The notes beneath the pieces were generated by a model. It was not told the origin of the DNA and did not search any database. It saw only the letters and a list, made by a program, of their open reading frames with translations. Shown one piece after another: positions 6,791 to 48,273 of a stretch of 64,000 nt of DNA. The translations under genes were made by a program, and so were the position numbers. Each line of letters opens with the position of its first letter. The first letter of the stretch is position 1. Source of the DNA: Vulcanimicrobiota bacterium (GTDB taxonomy: Bacteria; Vulcanimicrobiota; Vulcanimicrobiia; Vulcanimicrobiales; Vulcanimicrobiaceae); the NCBI GenBank assembly GCA_003161435.1, contig PMOS01000030.1, positions 37,949 to 101,948 of the forward strand. Reading direction: 5' to 3'.

Positions 6791-7883
6791 GGACGCCGGA
6801 CGTCTGCGTGCGAGTGAGCCGCTCGCGCAGTGCCGGCAGATCGACGCCGACCGCAGCGGCGCCGTCGACCTCGACGACGAGATCGCCGTCTTGCAAGCCT
6901 GCTTCGGCCGCGGGGCCGCCCGCGATCACTCCGTCGATGCGCAGGTTCGCGCCGGCGCGCGAGAGCCACATCCCCGACCGATCCCACTCCAGCCGCGGCG
7001 CGTCGACCGGGTCGCTCAGCCGCAGCACGCCGCGCGGATAGTCGAACGTCGCCGTAAACCGGCTCAGCACTGCGTTACCGATGCTGCCGGCAACCTCGTC
7101 GGAGGCAAAGCCGCCCGCCTGCTGCGTGGCGAGCCGCGCGATCGGGTCGGCGACATCGTACCCGGCCAGGGCGAGACTGTGCAGGCGCGTCACGTCCGCG
7201 ACGATCGGCGCGGCCAGGCCGAAGCCGGTGACGACATCGCGCAGCGTACCGCTCCCACGGCTGCGATAATGCTCGCGCGCGAACGGGGTGAACAGGGTGA
7301 TCGCCGAGCGGTCACCGGTGTCGAGGATGAAGTCGCCCTCGGTGCCGTCGACGCCGGCGCGCACGACGAGCAGGTTCTGCCACAACCGAAACGAGATCGC
7401 GTGGCTCGCGTCTTGCGCGGAGGGTGGCGCGTCGAACGTGAGCATGCCGCGCCGCGCGTCGAACGTCACCGCGTGCGAGCGCAAGAACGTGTATCCGATG
7501 ATCCCGTCGAACCGCCGGAAGCCGATGTGCGTCACCAGCGGCGTGAAGTCGATCACCGAGACGTGCACGTCGCGCACGGTGATCGAACCGACGGCGAGCC
7601 GCGCGACGACGACGTCCCCCGCAGCGACGGACGTCGCGTTCGCGCCGCCGACGGAAGCGGCGGGCGACGGATGCAACCCAAGCTCGGCGGCGACCTGCGT
7701 CGAGATCGCGTAGTCGCCGCCGGTGTCGACCACGAAGTCGAAGCGACGGCCGTTCACGGTTACGGGGACGAACGGCCGGTTGTCGATCAGCTGCATCGGC
7801 ACGACGACGCCGGCGGCGCCGGCCGGACGCGACACCGCCGCCAGCGCGCAGAGTGCAGCGCAGACGGCGAGTACCCGCTTCAC
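6726..7883 (-). CDS. Retropepsin-like aspartyl protease with PDZ domain
   Basis: FDFVVDTGGDYAIS and DFILDTGDRSAITLF motifs; C-terminal GVIAGGPAAEAGLQDGDLVVEVDG. Confidence 0.8.
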   Translation of the reverse strand: MKRVLAVCAALCALAAVSRPAGAAGVVVPMQLIDNRPFVPVTVNGRRFDFVVDTGGDYAISTQVAAELGLHPSPAASVGGANATSVAAGDVVVARLAVGSITVRDVHVSVIDFTPLVTHIGFRRFDGIIGYTFLRSHAVTFDARRGMLTFDAPPSAQDASHAISFRLWQNLLVVRAGVDGTEGDFILDTGDRSAITLFTPFAREHYRSRGSGTLRDVVTGFGLAAPIVADVTRLHSLALAGYDVADPIARLATQQAGGFASDEVAGSIGNAVLSRFTATFDYPRGVLRLSDPVDAPRLEWDRSGMWLSRAGANLRIDGVIAGGPAAEAGLQDGDLVVEVDGAAAVGVDLPALRERLTRTQTSGVRVEIRRGQLERSALVHLRTLV

Positions 7884-7890
7884 GACCGCG

Positions 7891-9459
7891 TCAACGGGAG
7901 GCTGCGACGCGCACGCTCGCGCTCGCGCCGTCGCCGTCGACGCGCACGGTCGGCGCCGTTGCGGCGGCCGATTGCGGGATGACCTGGAACTCGATCACCT
8001 TCACACCCGACGCCGGCAGCGCGACGGTGGTGCGAAACGGCGCGCACTCGCGGTCGCTGCAGAACGACGCGACCCACCGTTTCGGCAAACCGCTGGCCGC
8101 GAGTGCGACCGACTTGCCGGGCGTGCCCGCGACCACCAGCCGGTACTTGTACGTGCTCGAAACCGAGCCGGGCAGATCCGGGCCCGTCCACGGCGCGAGC
8201 GAGAGCGCCGTCTTCCCCTGCGGCTGCGCGGTGTCGAGCGCGACGGTCGCCTCTTGCGCCTCTTCGAGATACATCGCGTAGCGCGTGTCCTTCTTCGGCA
8301 GCTTCGCCGCCCAGGCCGCGGTCTGCGCGAACGCGGCGCGCGCCCTGGACGTCGCGCCCGCCTTGATGAAGAGTCGCCCTTCGTAGAGGTACGCCCAGGC
8401 CAATTTGCGGATCGCCTTGGCGTCCGAGGGTTTCGCGATCACTGCCGCGCGCGCGCGGCCGATCGCTTGCGCGAACGCGACCGCACCGTCGTTGTAGCGC
8501 TTCGCGTCGCCGTCGGTTACGCCGAGCGAGACGAAATTATCGACGCTGGGATCGAGCAGCACGAGCTTGCCGTACGTGTCGGCGGCCCGTCCCTCATTGC
8601 CGGTCTCGTGCAGCGCCTCGGCATACCCCGCCAGCGAGTCCACGTCGTCCGGGGCTGCGTCGAGGCCGCGCGCGTATGCGGCGAGCGCGGCGGGCCATTC
8701 CTCGCGCGCCGCCGCCGCGTCGCCTTGCAGCCGGGCGACCAGCCCCCGGTCCTGCGGCGTTTCGGCCAACGGCGCGAGCGCCGCCGCGGCCGCGTCGCGC
8801 AACGTGTTCTCCTGCGCGACGATCCTCAGGTAGTCGGTATCGCCGTCGACGTTCTCCGCGTCGTCGATCGCTGCGAGCGCCTTCTTCACGGTCGCCCGCA
8901 CCGCCGTCGCATCGCCGGTGAACGCGAACTTGGCCGGATCGAGAAACGCGTCGGCCTTTTTCTGCGCGGCCGTCGCCAACACGCCGTCGCGTCCGGCACG
9001 CGCGTCGTCCACGAAGCCGGCCAAGATCTGCGGGGAGATGTTGCCGACGTAGCGAGCGCGCACGACGCCGGCACCGTCGATCACGTAGGTAGTGGGAAAC
9101 GCCCGAATGTCGTATGCTTTCTCGAACGTCTTGTCGCCGTCGATCGCCTGCGGGTACGGCAATTGCTTCGATGCGACGAACGCGCGCACGATCGGCGCCT
9201 CTTCGGTCGAGTCGATGCCGAGAAAGGCGACGTCCCCGCGTGCAACCAGCCGCTTCGCGCTCGAGATCAGATCGGGCGTCTCTTCCCGGCACGGCGGGCA
9301 CCACGTGGCCCACGTGTTGATGACCAACGTCTTGCCGCGGTAGCCGGCGAGCGAAACCGTGCGGCCCTCGAGCGTGGTGAGGTGGAAGTCGGGGGCGGGC
9401 GCACCGACTTGCGGGCCGGTCAGGGCGAGCGCCGTCGCAGCCACGATCGCGTGCAGCAT
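7891..9459 (-). CDS. TlpA-like thioredoxin with C-terminal TPR-type repeats
   Basis: GAPAPDFHLTTLEGRTVSLAGYRGKTLVINTWATWCPPCREETPDL; Ala-rich helical repeats after it. Confidence 0.85.
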   Translation of the reverse strand: MLHAIVAATALALTGPQVGAPAPDFHLTTLEGRTVSLAGYRGKTLVINTWATWCPPCREETPDLISSAKRLVARGDVAFLGIDSTEEAPIVRAFVASKQLPYPQAIDGDKTFEKAYDIRAFPTTYVIDGAGVVRARYVGNISPQILAGFVDDARAGRDGVLATAAQKKADAFLDPAKFAFTGDATAVRATVKKALAAIDDAENVDGDTDYLRIVAQENTLRDAAAAALAPLAETPQDRGLVARLQGDAAAAREEWPAALAAYARGLDAAPDDVDSLAGYAEALHETGNEGRAADTYGKLVLLDPSVDNFVSLGVTDGDAKRYNDGAVAFAQAIGRARAAVIAKPSDAKAIRKLAWAYLYEGRLFIKAGATSRARAAFAQTAAWAAKLPKKDTRYAMYLEEAQEATVALDTAQPQGKTALSLAPWTGPDLPGSVSSTYKYRLVVAGTPGKSVALAASGLPKRWVASFCSDRECAPFRTTVALPASGVKVIEFQVIPQSAAATAPTVRVDGDGASASVRVAASR

Positions 9460-9466
9460 CGTAGGT

Positions 9467-11083
9467 CTAGACGCGCACGACGGCGGCGACCGTTGCAGCC
9501 GCCTGACCGCCGTGCGTCGCGTCGATGCGAACGTGAACGGGGCCGCCGTGCGGCGTGGTCGGCACGACTTGGAACTCGACGACCTTCACGCCGTCGGCCG
9601 GCACGACGACCGAGGTGCGAAACGGCGCGCAGACCCGATCGGTGCAGAACGAACCGATCCAGTGTTGTGGCAGTCCACTAGCAGCGAGGTCGAGGTGCGC
9701 GCCGGCGACACCGGTGACGACGAGCCGGTATTTGACCGTGCTCGCGACCGAACCGGGCAGGTCGGGACCGGTCCATGGTGCGAGCGAGAGCGCTGCGCCA
9801 CGGCCACGCGCGACGTCGAGCGCGACCTCGCCCTCCTGCGCTTGTTCGAGATACCAGTCGCGGCGCGGGTCGCCGGCCGCGATCTGCGCGGCGGCGGCGG
9901 CGGCGCGCGCGAATGCGGCCCGTGCCTTGGCGCGATTTCCGGCGTCGGTCTCCATGCGCCCGTAGTACAGGTTCGTCCAGGCCAGCGAGGGCGGCGTCGC
10001 GGCCGCGATCTGCTGCGCCCGTTCGAACGCCAGCTCGGCGGCGGCGACCTCACCGTGCTTCGCTTGCGCGCGGCCGAGCGTGACGAACGCCGGTGCAGAC
10101 GGCGCGAGGGCGGCGATCTGCGCGTCGACCGCGACGACACGCGCCGTATCGCCGAGCTCGGACGCGGCGTATGCCTGACCGCCCAATGCGGCGAGATCGC
10201 CGGGCGCGTGAGCGAGCGCGTCGGCATAGGCGGCATAGGCATCGTGCCAGCGACCCAGCGCGGCATCCTCGTCGCCGCGCAAGCGCGCCAGCAGCGCAGC
10301 ATCGGCGTCGCCCGAAGCGATCGGCGCGAGCGCGGCGATCGCCGCGGCGCGCAGCCGCTCTTCTTCGGCTTGCGTCTTGATCAGATCGTGGTCGCGCGAT
10401 GAATCGTCCATCGCGTCGTCCTCGAGGTCGTCCGCGTTCGCGATCGCCGCAGCCGCCTTTGCCGCATTGGCCCGAACCGACGCGGCGTCGCCGTCGAACG
10501 GGTACTGCGCCGGCGCGAGCAACGCGTCGAGCTGCGCCTGAAACGCGGTTTCCAGGGGCGCGCTCTCGCCGTGTTGCGCGGCGACGATGTACGCGTGCAG
10601 CTGCGCACGCGGCAACAGGTTGTCGGCGTGGCGCGCTCGCAGCACGCCGTCCGGACCGATCACGAACGTCGTCGGATAGTTCCGAATATCGTAGGCCGTC
10701 GCGAACGCGCTGGTTCCGCTCGTCGCGACTTGCGGGTACGGAATCTCCTTGGCGGCGGAGAACGCGCGCACCATCGACGCCGGCTCGGTCGTATCGATTC
10801 CCAAGAACGCGACGCCGCGCCCCGCGTCGCCGTGAGCCTCGGCGACCAGATCGGGAGTTTCCAGCCGGCACGGCGGGCACCACGAGCCCCAGACGTTGAG
10901 CACCAGCGTCTTGCCGCGATAGTCGCTGAGGCGGACGGTTTTACCGTCGACCGTCGTGAGCGTGAACGCCGGTGCCGGCTGTCCGACCATCGGTCCGGGC
11001 AGCTCCTGTGCCTGCGCGGCCCGCAAGCACACCGATGCCAGCACGATCGCGGCGGCCGGCCACACGCGGGAAGAGATCGTCAT
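9467..11083 (-). CDS. TlpA-like thioredoxin with TPR-type repeats (paralogue of 7891-9459)
   Basis: GQPAPAFTLTTVDGKTVRLSDYRGKTLVLNVWGSWCPPCRLETPDL; similar to its neighbour along its length. Confidence 0.85.
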   Translation of the reverse strand: MTISSRVWPAAAIVLASVCLRAAQAQELPGPMVGQPAPAFTLTTVDGKTVRLSDYRGKTLVLNVWGSWCPPCRLETPDLVAEAHGDAGRGVAFLGIDTTEPASMVRAFSAAKEIPYPQVATSGTSAFATAYDIRNYPTTFVIGPDGVLRARHADNLLPRAQLHAYIVAAQHGESAPLETAFQAQLDALLAPAQYPFDGDAASVRANAAKAAAAIANADDLEDDAMDDSSRDHDLIKTQAEEERLRAAAIAALAPIASGDADAALLARLRGDEDAALGRWHDAYAAYADALAHAPGDLAALGGQAYAASELGDTARVVAVDAQIAALAPSAPAFVTLGRAQAKHGEVAAAELAFERAQQIAAATPPSLAWTNLYYGRMETDAGNRAKARAAFARAAAAAAQIAAGDPRRDWYLEQAQEGEVALDVARGRGAALSLAPWTGPDLPGSVASTVKYRLVVTGVAGAHLDLAASGLPQHWIGSFCTDRVCAPFRTSVVVPADGVKVVEFQVVPTTPHGGPVHVRIDATHGGQAAATVAAVVRV

Positions 11084-17129: not shown

Positions 17130-19739
17130 TCAGCGCGCGCTCGCTCGCGGACCTTGCGCGCTCGCAGACTGCGCCGGCACGGGAAGCGCCACGAACGGCG
17201 CGGCGTCGCCGCCGGTCGGCGTGAAGAAGTCGGACATGTCGGTCGCCAGCAGATCGCCGATCGACAGGTTGCCCAAATGAAAAATCTGTTCGGTCGTCTT
17301 GAGCACGCTGACGGTCGAGAGATGCCGCAGCCCGATGTAGTGGCGCTTCACGTACGGTCCGACGACGACGGCATACGTGCGATACTCGTCGACGTGATCG
17401 CGTGAATCGGGCGCGTCGGCCGACATGACGAAGAGCACGGTGTGCCGCCACGACGGAAGGAGCGAGAGATACTGAGTGATCGCGCCGAGCGCGCGGTCCC
17501 CGTCGGCAACCTCTTCAGCCGGCGGTGGTATCCCGACTCCGGAGCCTCCGTGGTCGCCGGGCAACCAAATCGACACGTATTGAGGCTGTTGCCGGCGCGC
17601 TACGAGCGCGCCGTAGTCGCGGATGAACTCATGCGCCCGGCGCTCGTCGCGAATGCGTGGATTCCAACCCGGATAGTTCAGATCGACGTGCCGATCGAGA
17701 ACCGCCGGCGCGGGAACGTCGAGCGCGTAGCGCCCGCCCAAACCCTGGGTGATCGCATCCCGCTCGTCGATGCCGGTAAACGGAGGGTCGTCGACCCGCG
17801 GATCGACGGCGCTTCCCTGGTCGTAACCGCTGAGCTGCACCAAGTCACCGTAGTCGCGAAAACCGATGCGACGCCGGGCGAGCGCGTTGAAGATGTAGCC
17901 GCTGCGCGGATAATCCTCGGGATCTTCGTTCTGGTTGACGAGCTGCCCGCGGCCGGCCTTGGCGAACAACGTCCGTTCCGAGTACAGCGTCGCGATCCCG
18001 CCGGCGAGGAACTGGTGCGCGGCGTCGGACTCCTCGGCGTCGGCGAACAGATTCACCGCCACGCCGTAGCGCTTGGCCAGCGCGTGCAGATTCGGCGTGA
18101 TGCCTTCGGGAAACTGCGAGAACGCTACATCTCCACCGTTCGCTATGCCGATATCACCGAGCATCGCATCGAAGGTTCGGCCCTCCTCGAGGACCACCAC
18201 CACGTGCGTGAGCTCGCGCGGATAGCCCGGCGCCTTCGGCAGCACGCGACGCGTATTCGCCAGCGTCATCATCGTCGTCGATTTGAGCTGCACCGTACCG
18301 AGATCGATCTTCTGCAACGTCGACCAGACCGCAGTGGCGTCGCCGCCGATCGCCGGATCGCCGGTGTAATTGGGATCGTGACCGTAGCCTTTCGTGTTCA
18401 CGACGTACAGCGTACGATCGTCGGTCGCCAGCGCGAGCGCCGTCGGATACCAGCCGGTCGCGATCAGCCCGAGCCGGTGCAGGTGAACGGGATCGTGCGC
18501 GTCGATCACCGCAACCGCGTTCAACCCGGCGAGCGCGACGTACAACCGCGAGCCGTCTTTCGAGAGCGCGAGCGCGGCGGGCTGCGTCCCGTATGGACCC
18601 TTGTCGAACAGGCGCAGCTCGGTGCCGCCCACGACGCGCGGCGTCCCGTTGAGCGCAACCGTCGCGATGCGGTCGACGTTGGTCATCGCAACGAACGCGT
18701 AGGCGCCGTCGCGCGTAACGGCCAGCGCGGTCGGATGCGCTCCGCCGACGGTCCGCACGCCGTCGGGCGTTGCGTCCATGGGTAACGGTGCGTTGCCGAA
18801 CGGCGGCGCGTCCTGCGGCAGCGCGGAAAGATCGCCGCCCGCCGCGAGCTTCACGAACGAAAGCGACGAAGCGCGCTGCAGGTCGGCAGCCGGCGTTCGG
18901 AATTCCGGCGCCGGGGTGCTGTCGCGCAAGGATCCATAACGCATGAGGCCCTCGTTGGTGACCAGCAGTCGATCGCCGGCGATCGCGATACCGAACGGAA
19001 AGAACCCGACCTCGCGAGATGGCCCGCCGAGCGCGCGGGTGGCCGTGTCGATCGCGCTCACGCTGTCGCCGGCTTCGTCGACGACATACGCGCGGCGTCC
19101 GTCATTCGAAAGCGCGATCGATCCCGGGTAGCTATGGCCGCGATCGGCAAAGGCAGGATCGATCGGCGACGGCGTGGCGATGACGTGCTTGGCGTCCGGC
19201 CTCAGGTGCCCGTCGGCGTCGAGATCGAACGCATAAACGGCGTTCGAAGGGCCACCCGACGCGAGCACCAGCGTGCGGCCGGGCTGCACAGGATCGGCCA
19301 GCGCGGTTACCCCGACCCAGAATTTCTCGTCCGGCGAGCGATAGCGATCGACGACCTGCATCGTCGTCGTGTCGATCACCGCCAGGTTGAAACCGCCGGT
19401 CGCGCCGGACTCGACGAACGACGGGACCAACGCCTCGCGCTCGTCGTCGTCGCTGACGATCGCAAAGCGTCCGTCCGGGGTGAGCGCGACGCCGAGCGCG
19501 TTCATCCCGGTGACGACGCTCTGCCCGACCGGCGTGACGATGCGGCCGGACGGCAGAACCGCGTCGTAGACGCCGCCACGCAGGTGACCGGTGGGAATGT
19601 TGCCGGCCGGCGCCGCGTACTCGACCGTCGGCACCCGGACCGCGGCGGCGCGCGCCGGCGCGCGATGCGGTGTCGCCGCGGCGACGGCGGTGGGGGCGAG
19701 CATCGCCAGCGCGAGCGCGAGGATATGCGGTTTCATCAT
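17130..19739 (-). CDS. YVTN/YncE-type beta-propeller fused to alkaline phosphatase/phosphoesterase-like domain
   Basis: Propeller repeats (GGAHPTALAVTRDGAYAFVAMTNVDRIATV); C-terminal LTHVVVVLEEGRTFDAMLGDIG...YVSIWLPGDHGGSGVG. Confidence 0.8.
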   Translation of the reverse strand: MMKPHILALALAMLAPTAVAAATPHRAPARAAAVRVPTVEYAAPAGNIPTGHLRGGVYDAVLPSGRIVTPVGQSVVTGMNALGVALTPDGRFAIVSDDDEREALVPSFVESGATGGFNLAVIDTTTMQVVDRYRSPDEKFWVGVTALADPVQPGRTLVLASGGPSNAVYAFDLDADGHLRPDAKHVIATPSPIDPAFADRGHSYPGSIALSNDGRRAYVVDEAGDSVSAIDTATRALGGPSREVGFFPFGIAIAGDRLLVTNEGLMRYGSLRDSTPAPEFRTPAADLQRASSLSFVKLAAGGDLSALPQDAPPFGNAPLPMDATPDGVRTVGGAHPTALAVTRDGAYAFVAMTNVDRIATVALNGTPRVVGGTELRLFDKGPYGTQPAALALSKDGSRLYVALAGLNAVAVIDAHDPVHLHRLGLIATGWYPTALALATDDRTLYVVNTKGYGHDPNYTGDPAIGGDATAVWSTLQKIDLGTVQLKSTTMMTLANTRRVLPKAPGYPRELTHVVVVLEEGRTFDAMLGDIGIANGGDVAFSQFPEGITPNLHALAKRYGVAVNLFADAEESDAAHQFLAGGIATLYSERTLFAKAGRGQLVNQNEDPEDYPRSGYIFNALARRRIGFRDYGDLVQLSGYDQGSAVDPRVDDPPFTGIDERDAITQGLGGRYALDVPAPAVLDRHVDLNYPGWNPRIRDERRAHEFIRDYGALVARRQQPQYVSIWLPGDHGGSGVGIPPPAEEVADGDRALGAITQYLSLLPSWRHTVLFVMSADAPDSRDHVDEYRTYAVVVGPYVKRHYIGLRHLSTVSVLKTTEQIFHLGNLSIGDLLATDMSDFFTPTGGDAAPFVALPVPAQSASAQGPRASAR

Positions 19740-39129: not shown

Positions 39130-39186
39130 TTGGTGCGCGAGACTGGGCTCGAACCAGCACGCCCTTGCGGGCGCTAGCCCCTCAAG
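39130..39186. repeat. Left attachment site: truncated 3' copy of tRNA-Leu
   Basis: Identical over 57 bp to 48186-48242 (TTGGTGCGCGAGACTGGGCTCGAACCAGCACGCCCTTGCGGGCGCTAGCCCCTCAAG). Confidence 0.92.
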
Positions 39187-39537
39187 ACAGCGAGGAGGCG
39201 CTATCCCCCGCTCAGTGTTCGACCCTCTGTAACAGCAGAAAGTCACGGCAGACGAAGGAGAATTTCATCTCATTCAGGTCACCGAAACCGTTCGTTCAGG
39301 TCCGCCTCTGACCGCTCTGCTCCGCTCGATTGGCACTCAGATTGGCTCACCAGCGGCGGTGAAAGTCCGACACCAAGCGCGTCGAATGCTCGCTTCGGCG
39401 ATGCGCCACAAAGGGCGCGATCCCGGGTCTGCGAATCCAATGGACAACGGGTGTCCGCTTTATAGACTTGGGACCGCACCAGCGGCGCGCCGTACCCGGT
39501 CCTCTGCCGGACACAAGAGGCTTCGCAAGGACCTCCA

Positions 39538-40080
39538 ATGGCGTTGCACTCGGCACTCACCCTACTAGCCACAGTGGCCACAGCATCGTCGCTGACGTAC
39601 GACGGCACGGTGCTCCAGCACGAGTATGGCTTCCTAACGGTTCGCGATACTAACTGCCATGTTCACGAAGTCGATCTCGCGGGCTTCGATAATACATCCT
39701 CGGGTAGACGTGTTCGGATTGTCTCCATATACGATCAATCGGTTGGAGTCGAAAGGCCGCGGCGTATAACATTTGACGTAGGTCGCGGTGCGCCGACAAA
39801 TTGCGAAACAGCCGGAGCCGTTCAGTCAATCACGGGAGTTATCGTCTCGTACAGCCATGGCAACGGGCTCGGACTTCTTGCCATCCAGCCTGCTGGGAAA
39901 AGGCCCGTTACGTTTACAGTGCCGATGACGCGAATAGACTATTTCGGCAATCGTGCTGTGCCAGATGACCTGGCGAGCCGCGTAACATTCGGACGTACCC
40001 GCGTACGAATCACCTTCCGCACGGTGATGGATGTCGACGGCACCAGCATCGAAGTGCTGGGCGTTAATCGCGCACCATAG
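39538..40080 (+). CDS. Hypothetical secreted protein (element cargo)
   Basis: N-terminal signal-like MALHSALTLLATVATASS; ORF starts inside the element. Confidence 0.55.
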   Translation: MALHSALTLLATVATASSLTYDGTVLQHEYGFLTVRDTNCHVHEVDLAGFDNTSSGRRVRIVSIYDQSVGVERPRRITFDVGRGAPTNCETAGAVQSITGVIVSYSHGNGLGLLAIQPAGKRPVTFTVPMTRIDYFGNRAVPDDLASRVTFGRTRVRITFRTVMDVDGTSIEVLGVNRAP

Positions 40081-40124
40081 GTCTTTCCCAATCCGATTCT
40101 GCAGGTTGTCGCCGAAAGGCACCT

Positions 40125-40559
40125 ATGAGACTACACGCACTCTGGCCAGCGTTCATCCTTGCATTATCTGTTATATCAAGCCGCGGGCCTGTCGTGGCCG
40201 CTTCCAGCGGCATGACATTACCCGACTGCGCTGGCACGCCAATCGTCAAACCGAAGAACGTGGTGCTAACGTGCGCCGATGCGGGCGTTTCAGTAGGTCA
40301 ACTCTCTTGGACCGGCTGGGGAAACGCGTTCGCGGCCGCGACGGGAATCGCATCGGTAAACGATTGCAAGCCAGACTGCGCGGACGGTCACTTCCACAAG
40401 TACAGAATCGTCTTAATCGCAAACGGCCAGGAGCGTTGCCCGAGCGGGCAAACGGCGTACGCTCGCGTTACATACGCTTGGATCGGCCGCTCTCCGTATC
40501 CGCAGGACGCGCCGGGCACGACGGACCCGGTAGTCCCGTATCCATGTGGCAAGGGGTAG
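40125..40559 (+). CDS. Hypothetical secreted Cys-containing protein (element cargo)
   Basis: Signal peptide MRLHALWPAFILALSVISSRGPVVAA; KPKNVVLTCADAGVSVGQLSWTGWGNAFAAATGIASVNDCKPDCADGHFHKY. Confidence 0.65.
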   Translation: MRLHALWPAFILALSVISSRGPVVAASSGMTLPDCAGTPIVKPKNVVLTCADAGVSVGQLSWTGWGNAFAAATGIASVNDCKPDCADGHFHKYRIVLIANGQERCPSGQTAYARVTYAWIGRSPYPQDAPGTTDPVVPYPCGKG

Positions 40560-40620
40560 ATCGCCATACGGTAGGCTCGTTTTTAGTTCGAAGCACGTTG
40601 GCAACGACGTCGCTCGCCGA

Positions 40621-41277
40621 TCAAGGACGGACCTGTCCGGCATCGACAAGGCCCGTTTGATTGTTCAAATTGGATGCCGTGTCAGTCACATGCACCTTGT
40701 CATAGTCCTTCCATTGACTCTCCTGGCTGATACCACTGTGGCAATAGAGGCTTTCGCGACCAAGATACTTCACATGGATTCCCGCACTGATTGTGTCAAG
40801 ACCCTCCACTCGACCCAACAAATCTCTTGGCTCGGAATGACCGCTTGCAACGTCCTCCGCCATCACATCTAGCGCATTGCACCAGGCAGACTTCGTTTTG
40901 TAAAAGTAGGTCCATGATTGCGAAGACGAACCGACGATGGTGGCATGATTCTCGAATACGCGACGCGATGGTGGCGTCTCGCCGAATTCGACTGAAGAGC
41001 CTTGTTGCGTCACATGCATAGACGATTCCGTTGGAGGGCTTGTCGCGACATGAAGCGCGGGGCCCGGCGTGTATCGGTCGGCAGGCTCGGGCGTGGATGA
41101 TCGCGTCGCTACATCTTGTTCGCCGCCGAATACGTTGTGAACGACCTCGTACCCGCCGAAAACAATCAGGCCGACAACGGCCACGGCGGCGACCCCACAA
41201 CCCGCGAGTACCGCCTTCGCGCCAAACAACCGCCCAAGTACAAGCAGCACGACGACGAAGCCGATCAGCCAGATCAT
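40621..41277 (-). CDS. Hypothetical membrane-anchored protein (element cargo)
   Basis: MIWLIGFVVVLLVLGRLFGAKAVLAGCGVAAVAVVGLIVFGGYEVV two-helix N-terminus, soluble C-terminus. Confidence 0.55.
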   Translation of the reverse strand: MIWLIGFVVVLLVLGRLFGAKAVLAGCGVAAVAVVGLIVFGGYEVVHNVFGGEQDVATRSSTPEPADRYTPGPALHVATSPPTESSMHVTQQGSSVEFGETPPSRRVFENHATIVGSSSQSWTYFYKTKSAWCNALDVMAEDVASGHSEPRDLLGRVEGLDTISAGIHVKYLGRESLYCHSGISQESQWKDYDKVHVTDTASNLNNQTGLVDAGQVRP

Positions 41278-41584
41278 TGGGCCACAGTTTCGGCGGTTAA
41301 GGCATCGCGACCGCCCGGCTCCGTCTGGTTCGGCGCGAAATGGGCCTTCCCCAGCCCTGGCCGCCCGGCTGGACTCCTCGGCTCAGCCCGTTTCGACCCC
41401 AGGAACAGCGTTCGGCGCGATCTGGCGGTCAGGAAAACTCAGCGTCGATCTGACGCCGCATGATGAACAAATCGTCCGGCATCCAAAGGTCAGGCGGCTT
41501 CTCAAGGTCGGCTAGTTGCTAGGCCCAGCGCCCAAAGCGACGAAGGCTCAAGGTAGAACATCGCGCGACAAGGAGAGTGGCCTC

Positions 41585-42574
41585 GTGATTCTTTACGACG
41601 CGGAAGCGATCCGGGGAAAAATCAAGTCCGTTCTCGCCACAAGGAATGGCCGACGCTACGCTCTCGTGGCCTTTGTTGGTCAAGACGCGCTGGCTTTCGT
41701 CCACGAGCCCAAGGGCCTCATTGTGTACTGCTGGCCAAATGTCGCGGCGACCAGTCCAGATGGCGTGAAGAGTCTAATTAGCAAGGGCGCAAAGGTCTAC
41801 TTCGTAGACCGCCTACACATGAAGTTGTTCTGGTCGAATGGTGGAGGCGCTGTTATCGGCTCATGCAATCTTACGCAAAACGCCCTCGGTGGTGGAGCGA
41901 CTTCACTACGCGAAATGGCGTACTTCACGCCCGATGCGTCTCAAATACGTATTGATGACGTTTTAGCAACATTAAAGGCTTCCAGATGTGAGGTAACGAC
42001 TTCTGTACTCGCGGCATACCGCAAACAATACAACGCCGCGGCAGCGCGTCGAGACGAGTGGAAGCACAGTCGCGCTAAACAAAGACCCAAGACCGTCACA
42101 TTCGCGGAATATATGCGTGAACCGCTTAAGAGGGACCAACGAATAGTGACGACATGGTGGAACGGCTACGAAGACAAGGTGCCAAAGGCAATCATAGAAG
42201 CGGTGCGCGTATTTGAGGACGAATCTGAAACACGCGACCCGGAAAAGTTCATCTTGGACTACGTCTATTGCATCGGCACACCTAAGCGTGGCGATTGGAT
42301 TCTCGCCTGCAGGCTTGGTCAAAACGGTGGATATGGTAGACTGCACTGGGTATTTACTCACGTGGTCGCTAAGCGTCGGAAGAATGGCGGCCAGTGGGCG
42401 GCAATCGAACTCAAACGGACGACGGAAGCCGCGCCCTTCGATTGCAAAGACCAACGGTTCGTCGCGGCCTTCAGACAATATGCTGAAGAAGTGGGGTTCG
42501 AGCGGAAGGAGACTTTGGTGCTTACCGAGCCAAGGCTCGCCAAAATTGCCGCGTACTGGTCAGAAGCGGATTGA
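41585..42574 (+). CDS. Phospholipase D-like single-HKD protein with unrecognised C-terminal domain (element cargo)
   Basis: HMKLFWSNGGGAVIGSCNLTQNALGGG (HxKx4Nx6GSxN); GTG start preceded by AAGGAG at 9-nt spacing; tracked ORF begins at 41516. Confidence 0.75.
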   Translation: MILYDAEAIRGKIKSVLATRNGRRYALVAFVGQDALAFVHEPKGLIVYCWPNVAATSPDGVKSLISKGAKVYFVDRLHMKLFWSNGGGAVIGSCNLTQNALGGGATSLREMAYFTPDASQIRIDDVLATLKASRCEVTTSVLAAYRKQYNAAAARRDEWKHSRAKQRPKTVTFAEYMREPLKRDQRIVTTWWNGYEDKVPKAIIEAVRVFEDESETRDPEKFILDYVYCIGTPKRGDWILACRLGQNGGYGRLHWVFTHVVAKRRKNGGQWAAIELKRTTEAAPFDCKDQRFVAAFRQYAEEVGFERKETLVLTEPRLAKIAAYWSEAD

Positions 42575-42598
42575 ACGGCTCACTCCTAGGTGCGCTAT

Positions 42599-42739
42599 GG
42601 ACGGACCTGTCCCGCCTCGACAAGTCCGGTTTGATTTGTTCAAAATCGACGCCAAGCAGAAACAGCACGATCACGAAGCCAATCAGCCAGATCATCGGGC
42701 CACGGCTTCGGCGGTTAAGGCATCGCGACGGCCCGGCTC
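42599..42739 (-). pseudogene. Internally deleted relic of the 40621-41277 gene
   Basis: 42660-42739 matches 41242-41321 at 72/80 by eye (5' end of gene); 42599-42650 resembles 40625-40675 (3' end); middle missing. Confidence 0.65.
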
Positions 42740-42770
42740 TATCTCCGAAACGCTTAGATCGCGATCACGA

Positions 42771-43325
42771 TCAGCATCGTCCCGATGGATTCGGTGGGTC
42801 TAGGTAAACGCCAGCCGGAGCGCACCGTATGAGTTCATGCGCCTCGAAGTTGATTGTGCGAACGTCGAAATCGTCTTGGGAAGGAGCGTACTTCTTCATC
42901 ACGAGGCTCGTAAGGCTTAGGAGTCGTCGGCCAATCGCCACAGCGCGATCTCGTTGACCCGCGCGGATCGCGTCCCCACCTGCGCTTTCAAGGACGGTGT
43001 ATGCCCCTTGTAAGTCGCGTGCCCGTTGTGGACCGTCCTCATTCTCGATAGCGCACTTCGCGAAGATGTCTGCGACCTGTTCGCTGGCGCGGGACCTGCG
43101 CGAGTAATTGTTGCCTGCGTTTAATTGGGCCGCCGCCGCTGGCCCATTGAACGCCTTGAGGTTGCAATCTTCCGCCGCGTTCGGCTTCGCAGTGACTTCA
43201 CGGCCACCAACGGCGAAGAGCGCGGCGACGAGTGCCGCAACGGCACCTCCTCCCAGAACGGCCTTCGCGCCGAACAGGCGACGGAGAACCGTGAGCGCGA
43301 GCGGGAACGCACCGATCCGCATCAT
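42771..43325 (-). CDS. Hypothetical membrane-anchored protein sharing TM module with 40621-41277
   Basis: RRLFGAKAVLGGGAVAALVAALFAVGGREV N-terminus followed by an unrelated soluble region. Confidence 0.5.
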   Translation of the reverse strand: MMRIGAFPLALTVLRRLFGAKAVLGGGAVAALVAALFAVGGREVTAKPNAAEDCNLKAFNGPAAAAQLNAGNNYSRRSRASEQVADIFAKCAIENEDGPQRARDLQGAYTVLESAGGDAIRAGQRDRAVAIGRRLLSLTSLVMKKYAPSQDDFDVRTINFEAHELIRCAPAGVYLDPPNPSGRC

Positions 43326-43526
43326 AAAGGCTTGTATTCTACAGCGGCCTTGGCTTTCCGGCCGAGAGCGAAAACGAAACTTGCTTATTTGCTTGAGTCG
43401 GCCTTGCGAGGAGAGCCCTTGCCGTACTGGACACATAGCAATCCCAACCCTACGCGAGGAGTATCGGCTACTGGCCTCTTCAGCCTCGGGGCGTCGGTAC
43501 GTATCATCTGCCCGTGTTTGGTCCTA

Positions 43527-43916
43527 ATGATCTACGCGGCCGCGCCTGCCCTCTGCGACAATGCTTCAGCGGAGCGCAACGTGATCGTGCAATGTCAATA
43601 TTTGGCCGACCGGTCTCCGCGCCTTACGAATCGGCAATTCTATGAGATGTTGAATTACTGCGGGCTCGCCGTTGCTGTCCATAAGACGCGGGCCGACCGC
43701 CTTCGCGGCGCTGATCGCCAGACGGAGTTGCTTAAGGAGGCAGGGAGCCTGTTCTTCGTCGCCGTCGGCGCTCATGCAATGGGAGATGATCGTTGGGCGG
43801 CGAGCGCGATAGCGCGCAGCAGGCAACTCGCAAAGTCCGTGCGCGATAACGCCGCGAATTCCGACATCAGGCGAGATGCGATAGATTTGCTCGATACAGA
43901 AAGCGGGTTACCATAG
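43527..43916 (+). CDS. Hypothetical secreted helical protein (element cargo)
   Basis: MIYAAAPALCDNASAERNVIVQCQYLADRSPRLTNRQFYEMLNYCGLAVAVHK; C-terminal part of tracked ORF 43125-43916, start uncertain. Confidence 0.45.
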   Translation: MIYAAAPALCDNASAERNVIVQCQYLADRSPRLTNRQFYEMLNYCGLAVAVHKTRADRLRGADRQTELLKEAGSLFFVAVGAHAMGDDRWAASAIARSRQLAKSVRDNAANSDIRRDAIDLLDTESGLP

Positions 43917-44045
43917 ACGCTCGCCCATGTCCCATTATCGGTGCGCGGCAATCACTGTTCCGGCGCAGATACGTTCGTTTTTGCATCGTTTCGGCGACAG
44001 CGTAGCGGCGCGGCTCATCCGGCGCGAAAACGCTATGTAGAATGC

Positions 44046-44074
44046 GCTCATATTGATACAATACCAATATGAGC
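44046..44074. promoter_or_regulatory. 29-bp near-palindrome overlapping the serine recombinase start codon
   Basis: GCTCATATTG...CAATATGAGC perfect 10-bp arms around 44060; start codon at 44069. Confidence 0.55.
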
Positions 44075-44644
44075 AACCGCTTCATTGGTTATTGTCGCGT
44101 TTCGACGGGCCTGCAATCCGTGGATGGTCAGGTCGATGCCCTGAAGGCGGCGCGGTGCAGTGTCATCTTCGGGGACGAGGGCGTTTCCGGTGCGCTGTCG
44201 TCCCGGCCGGAACTCGACCGCTGCCTCGCATCATTGAACCAAGGTGACACCCTCGTGGTCGTCGCGCTCGACAGGCTGGGCAGATCGGCGGCGCACCTTT
44301 TCACAACCGTGGAGAGCCTTGTAGCACGCGGCGTCGGCTTCCTGAGCCTGCGTGAGAACATCGACACCACCACGGCGACGGGAAGGCTCGTCCTGGGCGT
44401 TTTCAGCGCCTTGGCCGCGTTCGAGAGAGATTTGGTCCGGGAACGCACCGTCGCCGCGTTACAGGCCAAACGGCGGCGCGGTGAAACGCTCGGTCGGCCG
44501 CGTGCCATGACACCTTCGCAGGTCGCCGCCGCCGTGAAGATGCTACATGACGGCGAGGCACCATCTCATGTAGCACGTCTATTCAAGATTGACCGTTCGA
44601 CCCTGAATCGGGCCATCGCCCGACAAAATTCGAAGGTTCCATAG
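44069..44644 (+). CDS. Serine recombinase (resolvase/invertase family)
   Basis: IGYCRVSTGLQSVDGQVDAL, LVVVALDRLGRSAAHLF, VFSALAAFERDLVRERTVAALQAKRRRGETLGRP, C-terminal HTH. Confidence 0.95.
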   Translation: MSNRFIGYCRVSTGLQSVDGQVDALKAARCSVIFGDEGVSGALSSRPELDRCLASLNQGDTLVVVALDRLGRSAAHLFTTVESLVARGVGFLSLRENIDTTTATGRLVLGVFSALAAFERDLVRERTVAALQAKRRRGETLGRPRAMTPSQVAAAVKMLHDGEAPSHVARLFKIDRSTLNRAIARQNSKVP

Positions 44645-44977
44645 CACAACGGGGTGCCACATTCGCATCGGTATCCGAACCGGCGACGTTTACCCCCGGT
44701 GCCCTGGTCGGCGCGGCTCAATGCCGTGCCGAACGCATGTGAGCGTTTCGCTCTGAAACAACGATGCCCCGAGATATTGTACCATCCTGCTTCTTCGTGA
44801 GCGGCTCCATACGAAAAGGGCCTGCGCTTCGAGCCGACCCAATCGCGAACTGCCAAGATGATACCAGACGAGGTCCGAATCAGTTTCGATTACCTTCTTC
44901 TGCTAGACCAAGACCAAACATATCAATGCAGTCGATCAACATACGCACTACTTGACCTCTATGAAGGGTGAACCAAG

Positions 44978-45154
44978 ATGGCATGTGTACTTTGTGCAGG
45001 CGCTCGCAGATGTTCAAACTGCAACGGCGCAGGTCAGGTTGGGCCGAACTTCCCCTGTTCATGGTGTAATGGATCAGGAGTATGCTACTTGTGCGCCGGA
45101 ACCGGGCGGGTCGGGCCGAACTTCTCCTGTTCCTGGTGCAATGGATCAGGGTAG
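44978..45154 (+). CDS. 58-aa small protein with repeated CxxC/CNGxG zinc-finger-like units (DnaJ-like)
   Basis: Translated by hand: MACVLCAGARRCSNCNGAGQVGPNFPCSWCNGSGVCYLCAGTGRVGPNFSCSWCNGSG*; AGGGTG upstream of ATG; not in ORF track. Confidence 0.65.
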   Translation: MACVLCAGARRCSNCNGAGQVGPNFPCSWCNGSGVCYLCAGTGRVGPNFSCSWCNGSG

Positions 45155-45644
45155 CCTCTACCTTAAACGCCAAGTAGGTTACCTGATTCTCTGTTCGGGA
45201 GTCGAACCGGCTTTGTACCTACTTCTGCCATCCGGAGTAGTGGGAACACGTCCTGCTAGTAACTTACGCTGGCTCAAGAATGTGTATCCGAAGTGATAGA
45301 TTTCGCCCTGGCCGGGCAAAATCGTAACTGCATCCGATGGATGAGTTCCGCCACTAGGTGTTATTCCAAACATGCACTTTTGGATTCTGCGTGGTGGGAA
45401 GCATTTACCACGCAGGTTTACACCATCGTCTCCGGTAGCCATAGACACGCATCGACAATTAGCCGAACCTCGTCACGGGGTAGGCACCGCATGGGCACCG
45501 CATATCACCGTCGTTTGTCTTTTCTATTGGTTAGATAGGATCGGTCATCTCCCACTATGCGCAGGCTTATTTATCCACGGTACTGCTTGGACGACCACTT
45601 GCTCTTTCGAGGCCTTCCCGTGCTGTTCAGTTATGATTTAAAAT

Positions 45645-45690
45645 GAAAAACCCCAGGTAGTTCACGGCTATCCGGGGTTCTTCTCTCTCT
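45645..45690. terminator. Rho-independent-type terminator hairpin
   Basis: AACCCCAGGTAG-TTCACGG-CTATCCGGGGTT followed by CTTCTCTCT, preceded by an A-run. Confidence 0.6.
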
Positions 45691-45790
45691 GATCGCGGCC
45701 GATGCCAGCGGGAGAAATCTTGATCCGACGCCGTGAACGTTTCTGATAGTAGTAGTATATGCTACTTCCGCCGAATTGTATCATCCGATC

Positions 45791-45994
45791 CTACTCGGTG
45801 ATCCCGAAGTCGGCCAGCACTTTTGGCAACTTCTCGTTGTAGTACGACAACTTTCCTTCCATCGCGATTCTCGCGTTCGAAAAAACCTCGATGAAGAAGG
45901 CGTGCTTGACGATGATCGAGCACGCCTCTGCAAGGCACTGAGGTCTCCTTGAAGCGGCGGAATACTCATCTACGAAGTCGCTCATACAATCCAA
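45791..45994 (-). CDS. Small hypothetical protein (element cargo)
   Basis: MSDFVDEYSAASRRPQCLAEACSIIVKHAFFIEVFSNARIAMEGKLSYYNEKLPKVLADFGITE; composition looks coding. Confidence 0.4.
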   Translation of the reverse strand: MDCMSDFVDEYSAASRRPQCLAEACSIIVKHAFFIEVFSNARIAMEGKLSYYNEKLPKVLADFGITE

Positions 45995-46672
45995 TTATAC
46001 CGCTGCGAACGAGGCTCGCAAAGCGAACGGCCTGGGCTCGTCAATATATTTACCGAATAGGCCGAGGCGCGATGACGCAACGCACGTCGTTAGGTTCGGC
46101 GACGCCACGCGCTCGACCCATTCCATCGTTCAGTTTTCAAGGTTCGTGCGCCGAACGCCATGTCGTGGCGACTTCGGGAGACTTGGCCCCGCGCTCTCTG
46201 CCGACGTTGATCTCGAAGCCGCGCCGCCCGTCGCGCGCTGGCAATCTGGCTTGATGCAAGAGCGGATTCAATCCTCGGTCAACCCGAGGAGATTGTCAAG
46301 CCCCCAACATTCCCGCTCTCGTGAACTCCATCCGCGTGTTTCGCTCGCATCGTTTTACAGTGGAATGAATGGCGGGGAAAGTATGCGGATGTGACATCTT
46401 GATTCAATAACACCTTGATGCACCGAACACACGTAGTTCCTTCGACCTAAAGGTTACCATCGGTGCGCCTGCAAATGGGCTTCGTTAACCGCGTGTTTCC
46501 GCCCAATGCGCTACAGAGCCATTCGTGACTCGCCTCGTCGGTGATATGCTGAGAGCATAGTAAATTCCCTGCGCCCGAACACCGTCGAGCCGCTGGCTTT
46601 GCGAATAGAGTTTAATTCGCCTTAGTTCGCTAAATCCTACAGTATCGTTGATCAGTGCGCGATGATTCCAGC

Positions 46673-46921
46673 ATGAGCCGCAAGAATCGCCAAACTGATC
46701 GCCATAGCCCCAGCACCGTCCCATCACACACAGACCTTGAATACAGCGAGACTCGTCTGACCGTGAGCGCGAGGGAAGCGTGGTCGTTCCTCGGGTGCGG
46801 GAAGACGACGTTTTACCACATCCTAAAGCAAAATTTGCTGACCCGCATCCCGGCTGGGCGGCGCGTTCGCTATCTCCGCGCGGAACTGGAAGGGTTGGCG
46901 CGAAAAGGCTGGTTCTCGTGA
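46673..46921 (+). CDS. Excisionase-like HTH protein
   Basis: LTVSAREAWSFLGCGKTTFYHILKQNLLTRIPAGRRVRYLRAELEGLARKGW; stop overlaps the integrase ATG. Confidence 0.75.
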   Translation: MSRKNRQTDRHSPSTVPSHTDLEYSETRLTVSAREAWSFLGCGKTTFYHILKQNLLTRIPAGRRVRYLRAELEGLARKGWFS

Positions 46922-48126
46922 TGGCCAAAAAGCGCAACTATGGCTCAGGGACCATCGTCGCCGATCCGGCTGACTCAAAGGCGTTCATCGGCTATCTTCG
47001 CCGCACCATCGACGGTAAACGTCACAAGTCGCCCGTCTTCCGAGGGACAAAGAGGCGCGACGTGGATATTCAACTCAAGAACTGGGAGGCCGCTGGCGGT
47101 TTCAACAAGATGCTGTCTGAACGACAGCCGCGAGATCGCGAAAGCGTCTACACGGTTGGGCAGTACCTTGACGAGTGGTATCCGCGCGCGGCGCGCAACT
47201 GGGCTGACACGACCCTCGGTACGAACCGCTCAACGTTCAATAGGTGGTGCAAGGAGCAGACCTTCTGCGGCCTCCCATTTGCTGAAGTGAAGAAACAGGA
47301 CGTGCAAGACTTTTTCAGCCGGATGCCTGAGAAGACGAGCGAGGGGACGAGATCGCGTGTACATCGGCTTCTGCACGCCGCATTCCAGGATGCCGTAGAC
47401 GATGACCGCTTGTCCAAGAACGTCGTCAAGACCAGTACCAGTCCGACTAAGCCGAAGAGCAAGGTCGTGGAGGCGTTTCATCCGATCCATGAAGCCGCGC
47501 TGGTGCGCTCCGTGGCAGGCGACCCGTATTGGCATGCGCTGATCTTGGTCGCGCTGGACACGGGAATGCGGCAGGCCGAGATTCTTGGGCTCCAGGTGCG
47601 GGAGGTGGACTTCATGCGCGGCGAGGTTCGCGTCCGACGCACTTGTGACACCGTGGAGCGCGTTCCCGTCGTCTCTGAGGGCGCGAAGACGGACGGAAGC
47701 ATCCGGGACATCCAGATCGCTCCCGAGACGCTAGAGGCGCTGAGATCGCTGGTGGTAGGGAAGGGCGAGCGGGACCACCTCTTCACGGAGGAGGGGACGC
47801 TATGGACGCGCACCCGGTTCTACGACGCGTGGCTGGCAAAAATCGCCCGAGCGGGCCTGCCGCACTACAAATTCCATAGTCTCCGCCACACCTGCGCGAC
47901 CTCGCTCTTGCGCCAAGGATGCTACCTAACGGCAGTAAGCAAGCGACTCGGGCACTCACGGCCGAGCATCACGCTGGACATCTACTCCTCCTTCCTTCCG
48001 GCTGATCAAACGCCGCTGACGCTCGCCTTCAGCGCCCGCCTTAAAGAGCATAGTTCGCCGAAGTCCGTCGAGGCCCAGGAAATTGGCACCCAGATTGGCA
48101 CTTCGGAGGTTCCAACGGCGGCATGA
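46921..48126 (+). CDS. int: Tyrosine recombinase/phage-type integrase
   Basis: ALDTGMRQAEILGLQVREVDF, HSLRHTCATSLLRQG, LGHSRPSITLDIYSSF catalytic motifs; adjacent to tRNA. Confidence 0.95.
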   Translation: MAKKRNYGSGTIVADPADSKAFIGYLRRTIDGKRHKSPVFRGTKRRDVDIQLKNWEAAGGFNKMLSERQPRDRESVYTVGQYLDEWYPRAARNWADTTLGTNRSTFNRWCKEQTFCGLPFAEVKKQDVQDFFSRMPEKTSEGTRSRVHRLLHAAFQDAVDDDRLSKNVVKTSTSPTKPKSKVVEAFHPIHEAALVRSVAGDPYWHALILVALDTGMRQAEILGLQVREVDFMRGEVRVRRTCDTVERVPVVSEGAKTDGSIRDIQIAPETLEALRSLVVGKGERDHLFTEEGTLWTRTRFYDAWLAKIARAGLPHYKFHSLRHTCATSLLRQGCYLTAVSKRLGHSRPSITLDIYSSFLPADQTPLTLAFSARLKEHSSPKSVEAQEIGTQIGTSEVPTAA

Positions 48127-48153
48127 TCTCTCGGTTCAGTATGCCGCCAGCAA

Positions 48154-48184
48154 GAGAAAAAGCCCGTGCTTACGGGCTTTTCTC
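48154..48184. terminator. Strong hairpin terminator after the integrase
   Basis: GAGAAAAAGCCCGT-GCTT-ACGGGCTTTTCTC. Confidence 0.8.
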
Positions 48185-48186
48185 AT

Positions 48187-48273
48187 TGGTGCGCGAGACT
48201 GGGCTCGAACCAGCACGCCCTTGCGGGCGCTAGCCCCTCAAGCTAGTGCGTCTACCAATTCCGCCACTCGCGC
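48187..48273 (-). tRNA. tRNA-Leu (anticodon GAG), CCA encoded
   Basis: GCGCGAG acceptor, D-arm GCGGAATTGGTAGACGC, anticodon arm CTAGC-TTGAGGG-GCTAG, variable arm CGCCCGCAAGGGCG, T-arm GCTGGTTCGAGCCCAGT, CTCGCGCACCA. Confidence 0.95.

Follow-up and report, generated by a model that had tools for sequence, protein, structure and literature searches.

A 9-kb integrative element in the 3' half of a tRNA-Leu(GAG) gene, with candidate integrase arm sites at both ends

How did the 3' half of a tRNA gene come to lie 9 kb away from its intact counterpart, and what does the DNA between them do? We addressed this question in a window of 64,000 nt (the whole stretch of DNA analysed), for which a first-pass annotation had proposed an integrative element seated in tRNA-Leu. 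The exact 57-bp repeat behind that proposal was verified in both position and identity: its two copies (39130-39186 and 48186-48242) start 9,056 bp apart and run from the anticodon loop through the encoded CCA of the tRNA, that is, nt 32-87, plus one flanking base on the 3' side. ARAGORN, with Rfam in agreement, located a single tRNA in the 64 kb, namely tRNA-Leu(GAG) on the minus strand, which is whole at the right repeat only, the left copy being a fragment of its 3' half. In matches of tRNA-Leu(GAG) against the whole assembly, the left fragment scored 100% over nt 32-87 and the next best hit 78%, the right copy being the only intact GAG tRNA gene found; this bears out that the full tRNA is present solely at the right end. 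An exact 57-bp match to half of a tRNA excludes chance.

Comparison with relatives revealed the usual gene order at this site, i.e., an acrB-type RND transporter, tRNA-Leu(GAG), a tlpA-like gene, and a peroxiredoxin. The window flanks joined through one core aligned as a single piece with G006 (76%, 705 columns) and, likewise contiguously, with G005 (73%, 693 columns), both congeners with empty sites. The acrB and tlpA genes also flank an uninterrupted tRNA-Leu(GAG), with no comparable insert, in G002, G003, G008, and G028; in G002, ~1 kb with a putative lipoprotein ORF separates the tRNA from acrB. The tRNA and both neighbours are present in G004, where further genes of chromosomal type separate the tRNA from acrB, and no integrase was seen at the site of G002 or G004 when other occupants were sought. 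The insert was found in one assembly only and, apart from stretches of <90 bp, is missing from 60 relatives. Its composition is foreign, with a G+C content of 52-61% over 39-48 kb versus mostly 62-75% elsewhere in the window, and GC3 values of 0.58-0.72 in the larger insert ORFs; of five flanking genes listed, four reach 0.83-0.88. Neither of the outcomes that would speak against an insertion, that is, a segment conserved as syntenic core or the lack of any empty-site allele, was found. The alternative of native chromosome between the repeats, with the left one a tRNA relic of unrelated origin, gained no supporting point; it is contradicted by the empty-site alleles, the absence of the insert in relatives, its deviating composition, and the arm sites at both ends described below, which leaves it a negligible probability. 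Together with a related integrase at the same tRNA in another genus, these data uphold the claims of horizontally acquired cargo and of an element integrated into the tRNA 3' half by its own tyrosine integrase. The locus displays the hallmarks of tRNA islands (an intact tRNA plus a displaced fragment, an internal tyrosine integrase near one end, and an uninterrupted site in relatives), and we put at about 95% the probability that it is a site-specific integrative element, of the cargo-type genomic island kind, in the 3' half of tRNA-Leu(GAG).

The coordinates of all features are collected in Table 1. The xis-like ORF overlaps the integrase start (TGATG at 46919, integrase ATG at 46921), both reading frames are intact, and the integrase gene ends 60 bp from the right repeat, which corroborates an Xis/tyrosine-integrase module adjoining the intact tRNA. 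The catalytic motifs of the integrase are readable as TGMRQAE, HSLRHT, and LGH...IYS. Its best relative among 60 genomes belongs to another genus (G016; 42% over 300 residues); there, the integrase ends ~200 bp from tRNA-Leu(GAG), a strong hairpin lies beside the tRNA, and the integrase is preceded by a related HTH protein that matches the Xis-like protein of the window (50% over 52 aa). Integrase scans of GTDB contigs and IMG/VR retrieved no useful close relatives. The terminator proposed between integrase and tRNA is a hairpin that folds well on both strands; a strict terminator scan passed over it, probably owing to a short T run. Since no such hairpin was seen beside the left core, the terminator seems to have come with the element. 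Scans for consensus promoters and terminators performed no better than shuffles.

Table 1. Features of the element and of its tRNA site, in window positions
Feature	Position	Strand	Basis
Left core (attachment site), a displaced 3'-half fragment of tRNA-Leu(GAG)	39130..39186	-	57/57 identical to 48186-48242; chromosome junction fits empty sites
Candidate Int site (arm type) on the far arm: ATTGGCACTCAGATTGGCTC, a pair of half-sites with period 12	39329..39348	+	142 bp from core; 2 mismatches to right-arm site
ORF A, 180 aa, probably exported	39538..40080	+	No Pfam/PHROG/NCBIfam/PADLOC match
ORF B, 144 aa, probably exported; family on chromosomes of the phylum	40125..40559	+	Matches in relatives
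ORF C, 218 aa, membrane-anchored exported protein	40621..41277	-	N-terminal anchor common with ORF D
ORF PLD, 352 aa (start perhaps 41585), PLD-like, one HKD motif	41516..42574	+	PLDc_2 E=0.0017, short of the Pfam threshold
Broken duplicate of ORF C (start joined to end, middle missing)	42522..42744	-	Repeats D1 (87%), D4 (89%)
ORF D, exported protein, ORF C-type anchor (open frame to 43436)	42771..43322	-	Anchor match
ORF E, probably exported (open frame from 43125)	43527..43916	+	No known family in Pfam/PHROG/NCBIfam/PADLOC
27-bp near-perfect palindrome CTCATATTGATACAATACCAATATGAG over recombinase start codon	44047..44073	.	Single occurrence, window and genome
Serine recombinase, invertase/resolvase type, 191 aa	44069..44644	+	Resolvase E=5.5e-41; phrog_125 DNA invertase E=1e-61
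58-aa ORF, five CxxC motifs (DnaJ-type zinc-finger repeat)	44978..45154	+	DnaJ_CXXCXGXG E=4e-5 and anti-TRAP E=5e-5, neither reaching the cut-off
Xis-like HTH_17 protein, 88 aa	46655..46921	+	HTH_17 E=5e-4, excise E=0.009
Tyrosine integrase, 401 aa	46921..48126	+	Phage_integrase E=2e-20, phrog_1 E=4e-57
Candidate arm-type Int site, int arm: ATTGGCACCCAGATTGGCAC, within int 3' end	48082..48101	+	~84 bp from core
Hairpin terminator between int and tRNA, both-strand use	48154..48184	.	-18.7/-18.4 kcal/mol, z -3.9/-3.4
Right attachment core, within intact tRNA	48186..48242	-	57-bp repeat
tRNA-Leu(GAG), intact; element supplies 3' half	48187..48273	-	ARAGORN, Rfam, whole-assembly match

Related elements were found in other genomes. 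The congener G010 carries a 3,484-bp integrative element in tRNA-Phe with a 47-bp core repeat (L093, G010:C285:10000-21102, 7239-10769); its integrase is related to that of the window, and a 248-aa ORF without PADLOC match lies upstream of int. In G027, a 9-kb element with a 44-bp core (L116, G027:C33:75000-94000, 9927-9970 and 18918-18961) occupies the 5' half of tRNA-Lys(TTT), so that the upstream region of this tRNA, presumably including its promoter, is now element-derived; Islander reports a 5' fragment in only 159 of its 3,919 islands (PMC4383910). The G016 locus resembles that of the window in its related integrase and Xis-like protein, the same tRNA, and a 12-bp tandem repeat; it differs in half-site sequence, and its contig stops before the other core. 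As a separate observation, tRNA-Leu(GAG) of G090 (L092, G090:C142, 8031-8116) is followed ~0.9 kb on by a 95% copy of its 3' half (9023-9078), with a 213-aa ORF and no visible integrase in between; this locus is possibly a shrunken island at the same site.

We next turn to the arms of the core, where short tandem repeats newly described here are probably the sites bound by the integrase. The 20-mer ATTGGCACCCAGATTGGCAC has a second copy, with two mismatches, at the far end of the element, and no further match at up to four mismatches in the 64 kb. The motif ATTGGC[AT]C has five exact matches in the window, and four of these, all on the plus strand, make up the two tandem pairs. G016 exhibits its 12-bp tandem repeat at the same position and distance as the int-arm site of the window. 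At the G010 locus, four copies and no more of the half-site ATAGGGTCCC are present in 11 kb when up to one mismatch is allowed: a tandem pair at each end of the element, all on one strand. Pairs of TGGTCAC lie ~67 and ~135 bp from the cores of the G027 element. Among eight integrase loci that had not been used in forming the arm-site idea, seven have a tandem repeat of period 11 or 12 within 150 bp of the tRNA, versus 7.0% of random windows (binomial 6e-8); as a control, such a repeat was scored at two of 35 tRNA-Leu(GAG) loci, one of the two being the occupied G016 locus. Because its translation would read IGTQIGS, as in the Int tail, the left-end motif was also considered as a relic of the 3' end of another integrase; this reading was rejected in favour of arm sites, given the period of the tandem, the pairing of both ends, and the fact that other elements repeat the pattern with unrelated half-sites. 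Repeated short sites thus occur on both arms of the core, as befits a lambda-like two-domain integrase, and recombination would probably follow the usual lambda-like mechanism, with Int predicted to bind these pairs.

The first-pass annotation had further singled out the cargo as the best place in the window for a novel system. This suggestion fared less well: what can be recognised of the cargo comprises a PLD-like nuclease, a serine recombinase, and exported proteins, among them ORF B, with chromosomal relatives in the genus. ORF B has a second, chromosomal copy in its own genome and matches in seven other genomes (up to 48% identity). Relatives of ORF A were not found in 60 genomes. The N-terminal anchors of ORFs C and D are 53% identical over 44 aa, the exported domains being different, and apart from its anchor ORF C remained unmatched in 60 genomes. 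Within 40621-43436, the PLD gene is flanked by ORF C and its broken duplicate (D1 and D4, 87-89%), and recombination between these repeats could delete it. The palindrome CTCATATTGATACAATACCAATATGAG may serve the serine recombinase as operator or as crossover site; a second copy, as the mark of an invertible segment, was found neither in the window nor in the genome, and no palindrome of this type was seen at the starts of recombinase relatives. In the 58-aa ORF, the CxxC motifs belong to an internal duplication and resemble DnaJ zinc fingers and anti-TRAP.

None of the ten ORFs tested gave a match to a relaxase, type IV secretion, or coupling protein, which would mark an integrative and conjugative element, nor to virion, packaging, or replication functions, which would mark a prophage or phage satellite; PHROG matches are confined to the integrase, Xis, the serine recombinase, and unknowns. 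The lack of recognised transfer, replication, or virion genes, along with the broken ORF C duplicate and long stretches without convincing genes at 45.2-46.6 kb, would also fit what decay has left of a larger phage or conjugative element, now immobile and with eroding cargo. However, the int and xis frames are intact, the two cores agree at all 57 bp, and neither arm pair has been lost. Moreover, small size seems normal in this group, because the 3.5-kb G010 relative, with the same layout, has no recognised transfer genes either. We deem decay less likely than the preferred reading of a small integrative element.

The PLD-like gene deserves separate consideration. The H, K, S, and N residues of its single HKD motif are conserved in two plasmid-borne relatives, from Massilia (WP_259213906.1; 40% over the N-terminal 130 residues) and Azospirillum (WP_162630080.1; 24% over 91% of the length); these proteins are 26-29% identical to ORF PLD, the four residues being common to all. 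The Massilia relative sits between dnd and dpt genes, and that of Azospirillum comes after an MkoC-like gene of the Mokosh system; partner genes were not found in the window. Among 149 genomes of the phylum, a single, fragmentary relative was found; PLD scans of GTDB contigs and IMG/VR returned no useful close relatives, and those of a phage collection none. The best PADLOC match was to ZacB (E=0.0039, PLD part only); neither a strong profile match to a PLD defence system (DrmC, Zac, Mokosh) nor partner genes were identified. AlphaFold prediction from the single sequence reached a mean pLDDT of 36, and a PDB search retrieved nothing meaningful. By analogy, defence against phages or plasmids may be the likeliest role for this gene, a tentative assignment with odds well short of even that is made plausible by the presence of its relatives in two defence neighbourhoods. 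Whether the whole island could be a defence island, its main function being nuclease-based protection by this gene, is doubtful: the conserved HKD residues and the Dnd/Dpt and Mokosh contexts point that way, but the profile matches are weak, the neighbourhoods number two, partner genes are missing from the window, and the remaining cargo looks exported. More speculative still, and improbable on present comparisons, ORF PLD might be a defence gene for a nuclease that acts alone, from an undescribed family that small tRNA islands carry and whose relatives reside in Dnd/Dpt and Mokosh islands.

The sequence shows that the element, seated in the 3' half of tRNA-Leu(GAG), rebuilds the gene with the 3'-half copy that it carries. 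On the preferred reading of a site-specific integrative element, the circular attP would recombine with attB in the anticodon-loop region, the catalytic domain of the integrase gripping the core and its N-terminal domain presumably the tandem ATTGGCAC half-sites on both arms. Excision would be steered by the Xis-like protein, the terminator would arrive with the element, and the cargo would be the payload. With no transfer or replication genes recognised, the element would depend on transformation, transduction, or mobilisation to spread. The locus offers a precisely bounded tRNA island with empty sites from a little-studied lineage, and the map of core, both arm pairs, xis, and int provides a testable basis for an integration vector in this group. 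Since tandem arm pairs recur with different half-sites in related elements, one could assign DNA sites to the N-terminal domains of integrases purely by comparison.

Mycobacteriophages L5 and Giles are reported to have directly oriented pairs of arm-type sites, and Cluster K phages two pairs of 11-bp repeats (PMC3203893). The island resembles these attP regions in its repeat pairs of ~11-12 bp flanking the core on both sides, directly oriented as in L5 and Giles; unlike them, it is not a phage, its core lies downstream of int, one of its pairs falls inside the int 3' end, and the half-site sequences differ. As for the islands catalogued in Islander (3,919 candidates, of which 2,083 have a site centred on the anticodon; PMC4383910), a tyrosine integrase, a regenerated tRNA at one end, a displaced 3' fragment at the other, and an anticodon-centred core are all shared. 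There is no difference in kind from these islands, the cargo here being small and unique; the element belongs to a very common class and is no new kind of system. What sets it apart is the clarity of its empty sites, the arm-site map, and a nuclease without assigned family; its insertion machinery can be read from the sequence to an unusually full extent.
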